Positions 5,813 to 9,289 of a stretch of DNA of 64,000 bases are shown here, piece after piece. The notes beneath the pieces are model-generated. The model was not told the DNA's origin. It saw only the letters and a list, made by a program, of their open reading frames with translations, and did not search any database. Origin of the DNA: Ensifer oleiphilus (GTDB lineage: Bacteria; Pseudomonadota; Alphaproteobacteria; Rhizobiales; Rhizobiaceae); NCBI RefSeq assembly GCF_013371465.1, contig NZ_JABWDU010000003.1:806001-870000 (forward strand), given 5' to 3'. Position 1 is the stretch's first letter; every line of letters begins with the position of its first letter. Made by a program: the position numbers and the translations under genes.

Positions 5813-7282
5813 TCATGCCCTTGGCGCTGCAAGCGCGGCGACCGCGGCAAGGTCCTGCTTGAAATGGGCCATCTCGACCTCTCGGCGGGTGGCATCGGGA
5901 ATGCGCAGCAGGAAGGATGGATGAACTGTGACAAATACGGCCGGACCATGTTCTGAGCGCCGTATCGTTCCCCTGACATCTGATATCTTCGGGCGTTCGC
6001 CGGTGAGGGCGAACAGCGCTGTCGCACCCATCGCCACGACCAGGCTCGGCTTCACCAGTGCCAGTTCGAGGTCGAGCCACCATCTGCAATGTTCCACCTC
6101 GCCAGCATTGGGCCTTTGGTGCAGGCGCCGCTTGCCGCGCATCTCGTATTTGAAATGCTTGACGGCATTGGTGATATAGAGGGAACGGCGATCGAGCCCG
6201 GCTTCATGCGCCACCGCGTCAAAAAGCCTGCCGGCCGGTCCGACGAAGGGTCGCCCTGCCAGATCCTCCTGGTCTCCGGGCTGTTCGCCGACGATCATGA
6301 TTGGGGCATCGGCCGGCCCTTCGCCGAACACCGTCTGCGTGGCGCTGCAATGGAGCGGGCACCGCGTGCAACCAGCAGCCTCGGCACGAAGCTCCTCCAA
6401 TGTACCGCGCAACGGCGGTGGCGCATCGCGCGGCGCGTTTGCTGCGGCCTCAATACGCGCATGAAAGGCCGGCGGGTCCCGTGCCATTCGCTCGCCCATG
6501 GCAACGACGCTTGCCTCGGCACCTGCGATCATCGCGGGAATAAGCGAGGCTTCCGGCAGATTCTTCCAATACTTCTTCGGCATTTCCGCCTGCATCGCCC
6601 TCACCTTCAGTCGCGCAGGATTGAAGATGCTGGAAAAATAGGTGCGCCAGAGTTCTTCGGTGTCGTCCGACAAGGCTGTCTTTTGGCCCGGGATTGACGA
6701 CACCTCCAAGACCTTGCCGTCCCAGGCGGCGATGCCGCGCGGCGTTGCAATCATCCAATCCATGTCGAAGAACCGCCTGTGAAAGAACGGTGCGACCCTG
6801 GCAACAATGTAGTGATCCGGTTCGAACCATGCGACGAACCGTCGGCGTTCGGCGTCTCCACACGGGCCGACCTCCTTGAAGCGGACAAATGCCGTCATCT
6901 TGTGGCTGTCGCGCCGGACCGATTTTGCCAATGCGTGCAGGGTGGCGACGTCGCCATCCGTTGCGACATCCAGCAGGTTGCGGTCCCGTTGCAGTCGGTG
7001 GAGGACCCGGTAGAGAACGCCGAACCGAACCGGATCGGCATGACAGATGGCAGTGGCCGCAAGATCGAGGAACAGCCTGGGCACCGTCAACGCCGGCGTG
7101 GCATCCTTCAGCGCCGCTTTCTGCTCCGATACACCCCGCTCCTGATCAAACAAATCGGCGCTTGCATCGGTCCCTTGACGCCATTCAACCGCCTCTGGCG
7201 GTACGCCTGCGAGCAGCAGCCTGCGCGCCGCTTCGCGCCATTCGCCCAGTCCCCCCCGCCCCTCAAGCCCGACGACGCGCAT
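5813..7282 (-). CDS. udgX: DUF4130 and UdgX-family uracil-DNA glycosylase fusion
   Basis: This 489-residue protein has an N-terminal DUF4130 domain (about 1-280, with MTAFVRFKE and HRRFFDMDW motifs) and a C-terminal family 4/UdgX-type uracil-DNA glycosylase domain. The second domain shows C305, C308 and C312 and C399 for an iron-sulfur cluster, the GEQPGD motif (332-337), the UdgX-specific KRRLH loop (384-388) and an HPS motif (454-456). In characterised UdgX the loop histidine bonds covalently to the abasic site left after uracil removal. The ATG at 7282 overlaps the preceding radical SAM stop (TGATG); a TTG one codon upstream is possible. The fusion and pairing match the known TIGR03915/TIGR03914 and TIGR03916 association. 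Confidence 0.88.
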   Translation of the reverse strand: MRVVGLEGRGGLGEWREAARRLLLAGVPPEAVEWRQGTDASADLFDQERGVSEQKAALKDATPALTVPRLFLDLAATAICHADPVRFGVLYRVLHRLQRDRNLLDVATDGDVATLHALAKSVRRDSHKMTAFVRFKEVGPCGDAERRRFVAWFEPDHYIVARVAPFFHRRFFDMDWMIATPRGIAAWDGKVLEVSSIPGQKTALSDDTEELWRTYFSSIFNPARLKVRAMQAEMPKKYWKNLPEASLIPAMIAGAEASVVAMGERMARDPPAFHARIEAAANAPRDAPPPLRGTLEELRAEAAGCTRCPLHCSATQTVFGEGPADAPIMIVGEQPGDQEDLAGRPFVGPAGRLFDAVAHEAGLDRRSLYITNAVKHFKYEMRGKRRLHQRPNAGEVEHCRWWLDLELALVKPSLVVAMGATALFALTGERPKISDVRGTIRRSEHGPAVFVTVHPSFLLRIPDATRREVEMAHFKQDLAAVAALAAPRA

Positions 7283-8514
7283 CAAAACAGATCCAGCTGC
7301 TCGGGCTTGGGTTCGAACATCGAGCGCAAATCCGATCGGTCGATCAGTTTGTTCGGCGTCCAGCCCTCCGTCGACAGGAATGAACGCACCTTCTTGACCG
7401 AGACGTGCAGCCGGGCGAGATCCTCCAACCTCAGACGGCGCAAACGGCGTGCGGAAAGAATGGCCCTGACGGCCTTCGTGCCAAGGCCGGGAACGCGCAA
7501 CAGCGCCTCTCTCGACGCGGAATTGACGTCGAGCGGGAAAAAATGCCGATTGGCCAGCGCCCAGGAAAGCTTGGGGTCAAGCTTGAGATCGAGCATGCCA
7601 TCCGGCTGGTTGGCGGTGATCTCATCGATTTCGAACCCATAGAAACGATAGAGCCAGTCCGCCTGATAAAGCCTGTGCTCGCGCATCATTGGCGGCTTGA
7701 TCAGCGGCAGTTTGCGGGATGCATCGGGAATGGGACTGAAGGCCGAATAGTACACCCGGCGCAATCCGTAACTGCCATAGAGCCTGGCGCTCGTTGTAAG
7801 GACCACGCGGTCGTTGGCCTGGTCGGCCCCAACGATCATCTGCGTGCTTTGACCTGCCGGGACGAAACGCTTCTTTCGCTTGGTCTGCAGTGTCGCGTCA
7901 TTGGCCTCATCGATCTTCAGCCGCAGCTCCCCCATCGATCTGCGGATGTGAGCCGGCCGCTTTTCCGGCGCGTAGGCCGCAAGACCCGCGTCGGTCGGAA
8001 GTTCGATGTTGATGGAAAGCCGGTCGGCATAGAGGCCGGCTTGCTCGATCAAGAGCGGCGACGCCTCCGGGATCGATTTCAGATGAATGTATCCTGAGAA
8101 ATTGTGGTCAACGCGCAAGGCCCGGGCGATGCGGACCATCTCTTCCATCGTGTAATCCGATGACCGAATGATACCGGATGAGAGAAACAACCCTTCGATA
8201 TAGTTGCGCCGATAGAATTCCATCGTCAGCCAGACGACTTCTTCGACCGTAAACCTGGCCCGCTCGACATTGCTTGACGATCGGTTGATGCAATAGGCGC
8301 AGTCGTAGATGCAGAAGTTCGTCAGCAGTATCTTGAGGAGCGAAATGCATCTGCCATCGGGAGCGTAGGCATGGCAAATGCCGGAGCCTTCCGTCGAGCC
8401 CAACCCGCCGGTATCCGCCGAGCTTCGCTTGACGGTTCCACTCGAAGCGCACGAGGCGTCGTACTTTGCCGCATCCGAAAGGATTGCGAGCCGTTCTTTG
8501 AGTGATTTCTTCAT
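7282..8514 (-). CDS. radical SAM DNA modification/repair-associated protein (UdgX-linked)
   Basis: This 410-residue protein carries the radical SAM [4Fe-4S] motif C68-x3-C72-x2-C75 (CIYDCAYC), a TIM-barrel core, and a C-terminal helix-hairpin-helix (LLRVPGLGTKAVRAIL) typical of DNA-binding proteins. It fits the putative DNA modification/repair radical SAM family that is regularly linked to UDG-fold proteins; its reaction is not established. Spore photoproduct lyase is a more distant relative. The start codon follows a LexA box by only four bases, and no Shine-Dalgarno sequence is possible, so a leaderless mRNA is likely. It is translationally coupled to the UdgX gene. Confidence 0.85.
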   Translation of the reverse strand: MKKSLKERLAILSDAAKYDASCASSGTVKRSSADTGGLGSTEGSGICHAYAPDGRCISLLKILLTNFCIYDCAYCINRSSSNVERARFTVEEVVWLTMEFYRRNYIEGLFLSSGIIRSSDYTMEEMVRIARALRVDHNFSGYIHLKSIPEASPLLIEQAGLYADRLSINIELPTDAGLAAYAPEKRPAHIRRSMGELRLKIDEANDATLQTKRKKRFVPAGQSTQMIVGADQANDRVVLTTSARLYGSYGLRRVYYSAFSPIPDASRKLPLIKPPMMREHRLYQADWLYRFYGFEIDEITANQPDGMLDLKLDPKLSWALANRHFFPLDVNSASREALLRVPGLGTKAVRAILSARRLRRLRLEDLARLHVSVKKVRSFLSTEGWTPNKLIDRSDLRSMFEPKPEQLDLF

Positions 8515-8518
8515 GTTT

Positions 8519-8533
8519 GTTCACTATATGTTC
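8519..8533. promoter_or_regulatory. LexA (SOS) box of alphaproteobacterial type
   Basis: GTTC ACTATAT GTTC is a perfect match to the alphaproteobacterial LexA consensus GTTC-N7-GTTC. It covers the predicted -10 element and ends four bases before the radical SAM start codon, an ideal place for repression. Confidence 0.8.
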
Positions 8534-8551
8534 CATTCGCGCTTGCGTCAA
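8523..8551 (-). promoter_or_regulatory. sigma70-type promoter of the radical SAM-udgX operon
   Basis: On the minus strand TTGACG (8551-8546) and TATAGT (8528-8523) are separated by exactly 17 bases. The predicted start of transcription falls within about three bases of the ATG at 8514, implying a leaderless or nearly leaderless mRNA. The -10 lies inside the LexA box. Confidence 0.65.
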
Positions 8552-8726
8552 CATTCAAGGCGCTGCAATCCGGATCGTGCGCGCCATCGCGATTTACAGG
8601 GTGGCCGAAGATCATTGGAGATAGAGACGGGTCCGGCCGGGTGATGTCGACGGCACCGTCGAGCGAGGCGCTTGGAGCCGTTCGTTCCCGGCGGGCCACC
8701 GATCGGCATGGGTCCGCAACGGCCAC

Positions 8727-8754
8727 GGCGTTCCAGCTTTCGAGCCGGAACGCC
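8727..8754. terminator. hairpin downstream of msrA
   Basis: GGCGTTCC/GGAACGCC (8 bp) extends through a mismatch into a GCT/AGC stem capped by a TTCG tetraloop. It lies 28 bases past the msrA stop, consistent with a terminator or 3' stabilising structure that separates msrA from the SOS operon. No T-run follows. Confidence 0.45.
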
Positions 8755-8782
8755 TTCCACCGTTGCCAGGCAGGCTGGCAGC

Positions 8783-9289
8783 CTAGGCGGCCGCCTCTCG
8801 CTTGGGCAACACCCAATTCGCCCGCGGAAAATGGCAGGTGTAGCCGCTGGGATAGCGCTTCAGGTAGTCCTGGTGCTCCGGTTCCGCTTCCCAGAAAGCG
8901 CCGGCCGGTTCGACCGACGTCACGACTTTTCCTGGCCAAAGGCCCGACGCATCCACATCCGCGATGGTATCTTCGGCTATTCGCCGCTGCTCATCCCCAA
9001 GAACGTAAATCGCCGATCGGTAGGAGGTGCCGATATCGTTGCCCTGCCGGTCGAGCGTGGTCGGGTCGTGAATCTGGAAGAAATACTCCAGAATGCGGCG
9101 ATAGCTGATCATCTCGGGATTGAAAACGATCTCGATGGCTTCGGCGTGTGTGCCGTGGTTGCGATAGGTGGCATTGGCGACATCGCCGCCGGTATAGCCC
9201 ACGCGGGTCTCGATGACGCCGGGCAGCGCGCGGATCAGATCCTGCATTCCCCAGAAGCAGCCACCAGCCAAAACAGCTTTCTCGGTCAT
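8783..9289 (-). CDS. msrA: peptide-methionine (S)-S-oxide reductase MsrA
   Basis: This 168-residue protein contains the MsrA active-site GGCFWG motif with the nucleophilic C11, followed by the GYTGG and [11 protein letters not shown] segments of the family. It reduces the S-epimer of methionine sulfoxide in proteins using thioredoxin. Length is normal. No recycling cysteine pair is obvious at the C-terminus, so thioredoxin would resolve the active-site sulfenic acid directly or through C-terminal C150 (YTCHF). The ATG overlaps the stop of a short upstream frame that resembles the C-terminus of MsrB, hinting at an ancestral msrB-msrA operon. Confidence 0.95.

Follow-up and report, generated by a model that had tools for sequence, protein, structure and literature searches.

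A LexA-type box over the -10 element of a radical SAM/DUF4130-UdgX operon and its conservation in Alphaproteobacteria

The closest described system is the two-gene COG1573-COG4277 operon, which passages of PMC8565304 assign to the SOS network inferred for Bacteroidetes, where non-canonical repressors of the S24 type fill the role of LexA, and which they regard as a putative base excision repair system based on UDG. According to the same passages, SOS regulation of the UDG system had earlier been reported in Verrucomicrobia and Alphaproteobacteria, with citation of Erill 2016 and of a 2008 paper on the Caulobacter SOS regulon, the latter for Alphaproteobacteria. By this description, the Bacteroidetes operon is a gene pair of the same type as the one analysed here, placed under the SOS regulator of its own lineage. 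SOS control of the present operon is therefore not new in kind, and the statement of the first-pass annotation that no SOS role was known for the gene pair has to be withdrawn on the strength of those passages (PMC8565304). The locus examined here differs from that operon in carrying the alphaproteobacterial direct repeat over its -10 element, and in having the DUF4130 domain, which appears to be the constant partner, fused to UdgX.

A related association was drawn by Aravind and colleagues in 2013, in a paper on SOS components, where a figure legend (PMC3765255) predicts that DUF4130 is an enzyme related to mutagenesis and links it to SplB-like radical SAM proteins and UDGs. The association found here is the same; the LexA-type sites and the optional presence of UdgX go beyond what that legend gives. 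Among the open-licence PMC papers searched, DUF4130 was found in PMC3765255 only. SplB (spore photoproduct lyase) is a radical SAM repair enzyme reported to be SOS-regulated in passages of PMC8565304, and the radical SAM protein of the operon resembles it in its CxxxCxxC motif, its SOS-type control and, probably, a DNA substrate. However, in a scan of the NCBIfam library, which may or may not contain a SplB model, this protein matched TIGR03916 only at E up to 0.001, and it may catalyse a reaction other than photoproduct reversal. Genome-wide methods for DNA uracil make use of UdgX, and its physiological role is said, in the parts of PMC10359453 drawn on here, to be largely unknown. Among the open-licence PMC papers searched, none joined UdgX with LexA, "SOS response" or "radical SAM".

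The operon is located on the minus strand of the window, that is, the whole analysed stretch of 64,000 nucleotides. The first gene (7282..8514) encodes a 410-aa radical SAM protein of the family TIGR03916 (rSAM_link_UDG; 564.9 bits against a cut-off of 343.5), the model of which is titled "putative DNA modification/repair radical SAM protein". This family is presumably equivalent to COG4277, and COG1573 to the family-4 UDG/UdgX group. The [4Fe-4S]/SAM motif CxxxCxxC (CIYDCAYC) is found at 8290..8313, minus strand, and its cysteines C68, C72 and C75 are invariant in 48 aligned proteins. A C-terminal helix-hairpin-helix is a feature of the TIGR03916 group; here, the respective match to HHH_3 (E 0.00085, 19.8 bits) falls under the Pfam cut-off of 27 bits, and the same stretch gave weak PDB matches to chains of the ComEA and RuvA types (E 0.29 and 0.7).

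The second gene (5813..7282, minus strand) encodes a 489-aa DUF4130-UdgX fusion with both TIGR03915 and TIGR03914 above their cut-offs, and its ATG overlaps the stop codon of the radical SAM gene (TGATG, 7284-7280). The first-pass annotation had described the operon as a radical SAM-UDG pair; the radical SAM half of this description stands, while the partner proved to be the fusion, with DUF4130 as its more constant part. The DUF4130 domain (TIGR03915, 6548..7252, minus strand) scored 215.2 bits against a cut-off of 112.25. Across 136 aligned homologues, after removal of those in which fewer than about 150 positions were aligned, 38 alignment columns are at least 95% identical, and the polar residues kept include R16, Y91, R96, D109, H127, R134, E154, R170, D206 and R224.

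The UdgX domain (TIGR03914, 5840..6544, minus strand) scored 330.5 bits against a cut-off of 189.95, and its membership in UdgX follows from this score together with the motifs GEQPG, KRRxH and HPSxxxR, as defined in PMC10359453, all of which are present (GEQPG, KRRLH, HPSFLLR). The KRRLH of the R-loop is encoded at 6119..6133, minus strand, and in the alignment its histidine matches H109 of the Mycobacterium smegmatis UdgX, the residue which bonds covalently to abasic DNA according to passages of PMC10359453. By analogy, the domain in this operon may form a covalent bond with uracil-derived abasic DNA. The motifs GEQPG, KRR(I/L)H and HPS are common to this domain and the M. smegmatis structures (PDB 6ajo, 6iod), but the chains of the latter have 205-229 residues, whereas here UdgX is fused behind DUF4130, and the neighboring radical SAM gene carries a LexA box. 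An anti-phage role was also considered and rejected, as neither operon protein matched PADLOC.

Structure models agreed with the assignment of the UdgX half. The fusion was modelled with a pLDDT of 86.4 and a pTM of 0.52, and its UdgX half matched the M. smegmatis UdgX structures in a fold search at E 1e-20, with 48% identity to 6ajp across 199 alignment columns. The first 50 rows of this search held UDG-type matches, a phage DNA polymerase and one conserved protein at UDG-like ranks. Because the matches listed were of the UDG type or stood at UDG-like ranks, the search is uninformative on DUF4130, for which a PDB sequence search also found no relative (best E 0.3). The radical SAM protein gave a model of moderate confidence (pLDDT 72.2) and no fold match at E 0.001 or better; the top ones, viperin, the PFL-activating enzyme and biotin synthase at E about 2e-3, are too weak for the naming of a substrate from this model. 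The PDB sequence search with the same protein reached E 0.16 at best, with weak matches to radical SAM and helix-hairpin-helix chains.

The candidate LexA (SOS) box GAACATATAGTGAAC occupies 8533-8519 on the minus strand and is a perfect copy of the alphaproteobacterial direct repeat GAAC-N7-GAAC (or GTTC-N7-GTTC). The plus strand of 8519-8533 reads GTTCACTATATGTTC, and GAACATATAGTGAAC points toward the gene on the minus strand. A consensus scan placed a -10 hexamer TATAGT (8528-8523) wholly within the N7 of the box and a -35 hexamer TTGACG (8551-8546) 17 nt from it, both on the minus strand. This TTGACG-N17-TATAGT is the sole promoter-like match of the scan in 8400-8800, with 0.1 expected in shuffles. 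The first-pass annotation had claimed both the perfect box and its position over the -10 element of this promoter; the sequence, the coordinates and the overlap are all correct. The ATG of the radical SAM gene (8514) is located only 4 nt past the box, and for this reason a leaderless or near-leaderless mRNA may be expected for this gene. Upstream of the operon, its immediate neighbor on the same strand is msrA (peptide methionine sulfoxide reductase, TIGR00401; 8783-9289, minus strand), and the promoter and the box sit in the 268-base gap between the two.

The frequency of the motif is by itself of no use as evidence and was dropped as such. GTTC-N7-GTTC occurs once in the window, where 1.98 are expected from dinucleotide shuffles, which is the level of chance, and 220 times in the genome compared with 170 for the reversed control pattern. 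The box is counted as real because of its position and its conservation, not because of motif frequency. As a separate observation, two contigs of one genome (G000:C3:3740/4866 and G000:C4:2056/3182) share, near their starts, one pair of motif strings set 1126 bases apart in both, which is probably a repeated element of the genome.

The comparison of upstream regions in relatives, which the first-pass annotation had pointed to, shows that the box is conserved. Of 129 distinct alphaproteobacterial loci, among them that of the window, 126 have the exact box upstream of the TIGR03916 gene, where 0.55 are expected from mononucleotide shuffling; the span searched was -150 to +12 of the start of the gene or of the profile match. 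The 129 loci result from merging a named and a genome-drawn set and collapsing loci that share sequence. The named set, which comprises the best 80 of 581 relatives by similarity and is therefore not independent, has the exact box at 78 of 80 loci, and at the other two (L085 and L088) the box has one mismatch. The genome-drawn alphaproteobacterial loci above the family cut-off have it in 51 of 52 cases (the exception being L122), and the same-genus relatives with a full gene in five out of five. Control patterns (N3-N6 and N8-N11 spacings, the reversed motif and inverted halves) were met at 0-5 loci per set of 52-80, and so was the box in control stretches at -1400, -600 and +400. Per-column values within the GAAC halves are 100% by selection and are excluded from the evidence. 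The gene itself is uncommon: among genomes drawn evenly from the class, 18 of 289 have it above the cut-off, and among those drawn from the phylum, 53 of 299.

The placement of the box relative to the promoter follows a dominant pattern with several departures. Among the 117 forward boxes, 62 have an N7 with TATAGT or TTTAGT at its end and hence coincide with the -10 element, and the commonest N7 is ATATAGT (51), which contains it. At 12-16 nt before the box a -35 of the TTGAC type is prominent, and the positions 19-32 nt upstream are close to random; TTGAC, TTGCC or TTGTC occurs at most 22 nt upstream in 80 of the 117. Two members of the genus (L115, L116) have the box between -35 and -10, two loci of Asaia (L103, L104) have it over TTGAC, and in 11 of 128 cases its orientation is the opposite. 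The first in-frame ATG, GTG or TTG is found 0-9 nt past the box in 100 of the 117 forward boxes, and it is therefore likely, from the sequences, that a leaderless or near-leaderless layout is conserved across the homologues.

Within the genus, the gene is above the cut-off in 6 of 16 genomes and belongs to two distant lineages (L114, L117, L118 and L119 in the one, L115 and L116 in the other), whose common ancestor spans 95 of the 148 tips of the tree. Each lineage has its own arrangement of the LexA box. Horizontal movement, with separate gains, is the likely origin of the two lineages in one genus. Another locus of the same genus (L120, G004:C32:9743-9955) retains only a radical SAM remnant of 71 positions with an internal TAG stop. 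Since such a remnant exists and the gene is present in only 6 of the 16 genomes, the operon seems to have been often gained and lost within the genus.

The type of the box follows the type of the LexA motif in each lineage. This genome has a single match to the LexA model, above the cut-off, and the same alphaproteobacterial box is found at its lexA (GAACACATATGGAAC) and recA (GAACATGAATCGAAC) promoters. The alphaproteobacterial box was absent upstream of the radical SAM gene in all 17 Pseudomonadota from outside Alphaproteobacteria (0/17), and the Escherichia coli-type CTGT-N8-ACAG was there instead in exact form in 12 and with one mismatch in three (L185, L194, L195), with neither form in the remaining two (L150, L168). 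Similarly, alphaproteobacterial lexA promoters carry the exact alphaproteobacterial box in 13 of 14 cases (L240 lacks it) and the E. coli type in none of the 14, whereas the non-alphaproteobacterial ones carry the exact E. coli type in 11 of 16 and the alphaproteobacterial type in none of the 16. Five of the latter promoters are devoid of an exact E. coli-type box (L223, L227, L228, L229 and L234), yet the genomes of the first four have an E. coli-type box at the radical SAM gene.

Forty genomes, a subset of the 68-genome comparison below, were searched for LexA, and only G213 and G366 were without a match above the cut-off; both are boxless at the operon. The true exception is G383, which has LexA above the cut-off and neither type of box at the operon. 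Its lexA promoter (L234) carries TTAGTAGTAATACTACTAA, which we take to be the Xanthomonas-type LexA motif, and inspection by eye showed no site of this type within 250 bases upstream of its radical SAM gene. At 32-54 bases before the radical SAM match, the same upstream region (L168, 1447-1469) holds the perfect inverted repeat GCGGTCTCAT-CCA-ATGAGACCGC, which is possibly a terminator or the site of another regulator.

Co-occurrence was followed in 68 genomes, all but one of the 69 that have the radical SAM gene above the cut-off; the one left out (G060, locus L137) has its gene cut by a contig end, and it carries the box. DUF4130 is above the cut-off in 68 of 68, always on the same contig as the radical SAM gene, at a distance of at most 200 nt in 60 and at most 750 nt in 66; in the other two, G523 and G511, it lies 2.8 and 3.1 kb from the radical SAM match. 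UdgX is above the cut-off somewhere in the genome in 51 of the 68 and nowhere in 17. The UdgX-less alphaproteobacterial genomes have the exact alphaproteobacterial box at the operon in five out of six cases (G213 is the one without), and the 11 UdgX-less genomes from outside this class have the E. coli-type box in exact form in seven and in near form in three, with none in G366. In two genomes (G048, G275) UdgX is above the cut-off only outside the operon, and there the radical SAM-DUF4130 operon is boxed and the stand-alone UdgX is not.

Control loci in Alphaproteobacteria, picked by hand from the UdgX match list and searched over whole stretches of 2.0-2.2 kb, gave no alphaproteobacterial box at 7 stand-alone UdgX loci (0/7) and none at 13 family-4-like UDG loci (0/13), "family-4-like" denoting a match that stays under the UdgX cut-off and not one defined by a family-4 model. 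The idea that UDG genes in general are SOS-controlled was rejected on these counts. As the UdgX-less operons are mostly boxed and the seven stand-alone UdgX genes are boxless, SOS control appears to follow radical SAM and DUF4130, which suggests that the core switched by SOS is this pair and not the UdgX domain. Fragments of a second, broken UdgX frame were also noticed in one genome (G001:C3:1292707-1293193), about 80 kb from its intact operon.

From these comparisons, control of the operon by LexA is very likely, and four other readings of the site or of the operon were weighed. The bare counts, with one match in the window for 1.98 expected and a genome total little above the control, would suit a chance occurrence of GTTC-N7-GTTC in a GC-rich genome, but its recurrence at 126 of 129 distinct loci for 0.55 expected leaves chance with a negligible probability. 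The conserved string could also be nothing but a strong -10 element with its flanks and no regulator site, as the -10-containing ATATAGT is the commonest N7 (51/117). The GAAC flanks persist, however, where the N7 is not -10-like, where they occupy the spacer or cover the -35, and where they are reversed, and outside Alphaproteobacteria a LexA motif of the E. coli type takes the same place in 12 of 17; since the boxes shift in position and flip in orientation, a mere conserved -10 was rejected as very improbable. Only slightly less improbable is the use of the site by a LexA-like paralogue or another S24-type repressor in place of LexA, for which the non-canonical repressors of Bacteroidetes offer a precedent (passages of PMC8565304); against it, the LexA model has a single match in this genome, which exceeds the cut-off, and the lexA and recA promoters share the motif.

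The remaining reading concerns the effector and not the regulator. It makes UdgX the effector of an SOS-induced uracil base-excision system with the radical SAM protein as an accessory, which is close to how passages of PMC8565304 see the operon, namely as putative base excision repair based on a UDG, and the domain does possess all the hallmark motifs. Nevertheless, 17 of 68 genomes have no UdgX above the cut-off and the box is kept in five of six such Alphaproteobacteria and in seven (with three near matches) of 11 others, and the stand-alone UdgX genes are boxless (0/7), so that we consider this reading unlikely, although clearly less so than the preceding ones. Of the interpretation in the first-pass annotation, LexA/SOS control is strongly supported by the conservation of the box, the change of its type with the LexA motif and the boxes at lexA and recA; a radical SAM-UDG pair is not the most apt name for the operon, and its role in DNA repair is putative.

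The preferred reading, in which we have high confidence, is a LexA operator over the -10 element of a damage-induced operon in which the radical SAM protein and DUF4130, here tethered to UdgX, make up the SOS core. In undamaged cells, LexA bound to GAACATATAGTGAAC would block the -10 of the promoter of the two-gene operon. Upon DNA damage, RecA would be activated and LexA would cleave itself, and its loss would release a single mRNA with almost no leader, from which the TIGR03916 radical SAM protein and, through the overlapping stop and start codons, the DUF4130-UdgX fusion would be translated. Radical SAM and DUF4130 would then act as the functional core under SOS control, most likely as a putative enzyme that changes or repairs damaged DNA bases. 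By analogy with its mycobacterial counterpart, the tethered UdgX would excise uracil and remain attached to the abasic site through a covalent bond.

As far as the searches go, the new elements are the scale of the conservation, the match between the type of the box and the type of LexA, and the identification of DUF4130, in place of UdgX, as the constant partner under SOS control. A wider proposal, which we put forward tentatively and would sooner expect to fail than to hold, is that radical SAM (TIGR03916) and DUF4130 form an undescribed two-protein enzyme for DNA lesions which is under LexA whatever the motif of the latter, and that in many Alphaproteobacteria the fused UdgX serves as a covalent, non-turnover uracil trap which anchors or marks the site of the radical enzyme. 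If this is true, the missing physiological role of UdgX would be that of a targeting arm of an SOS radical SAM repair system. Taken together, the literature on UdgX and that on the SOS operon give UdgX a testable setting, an SOS operon with radical SAM and DUF4130 as the constant members, and the question would shift from which glycosylase is involved to how the radical SAM-DUF4130 pair acts on damaged DNA.
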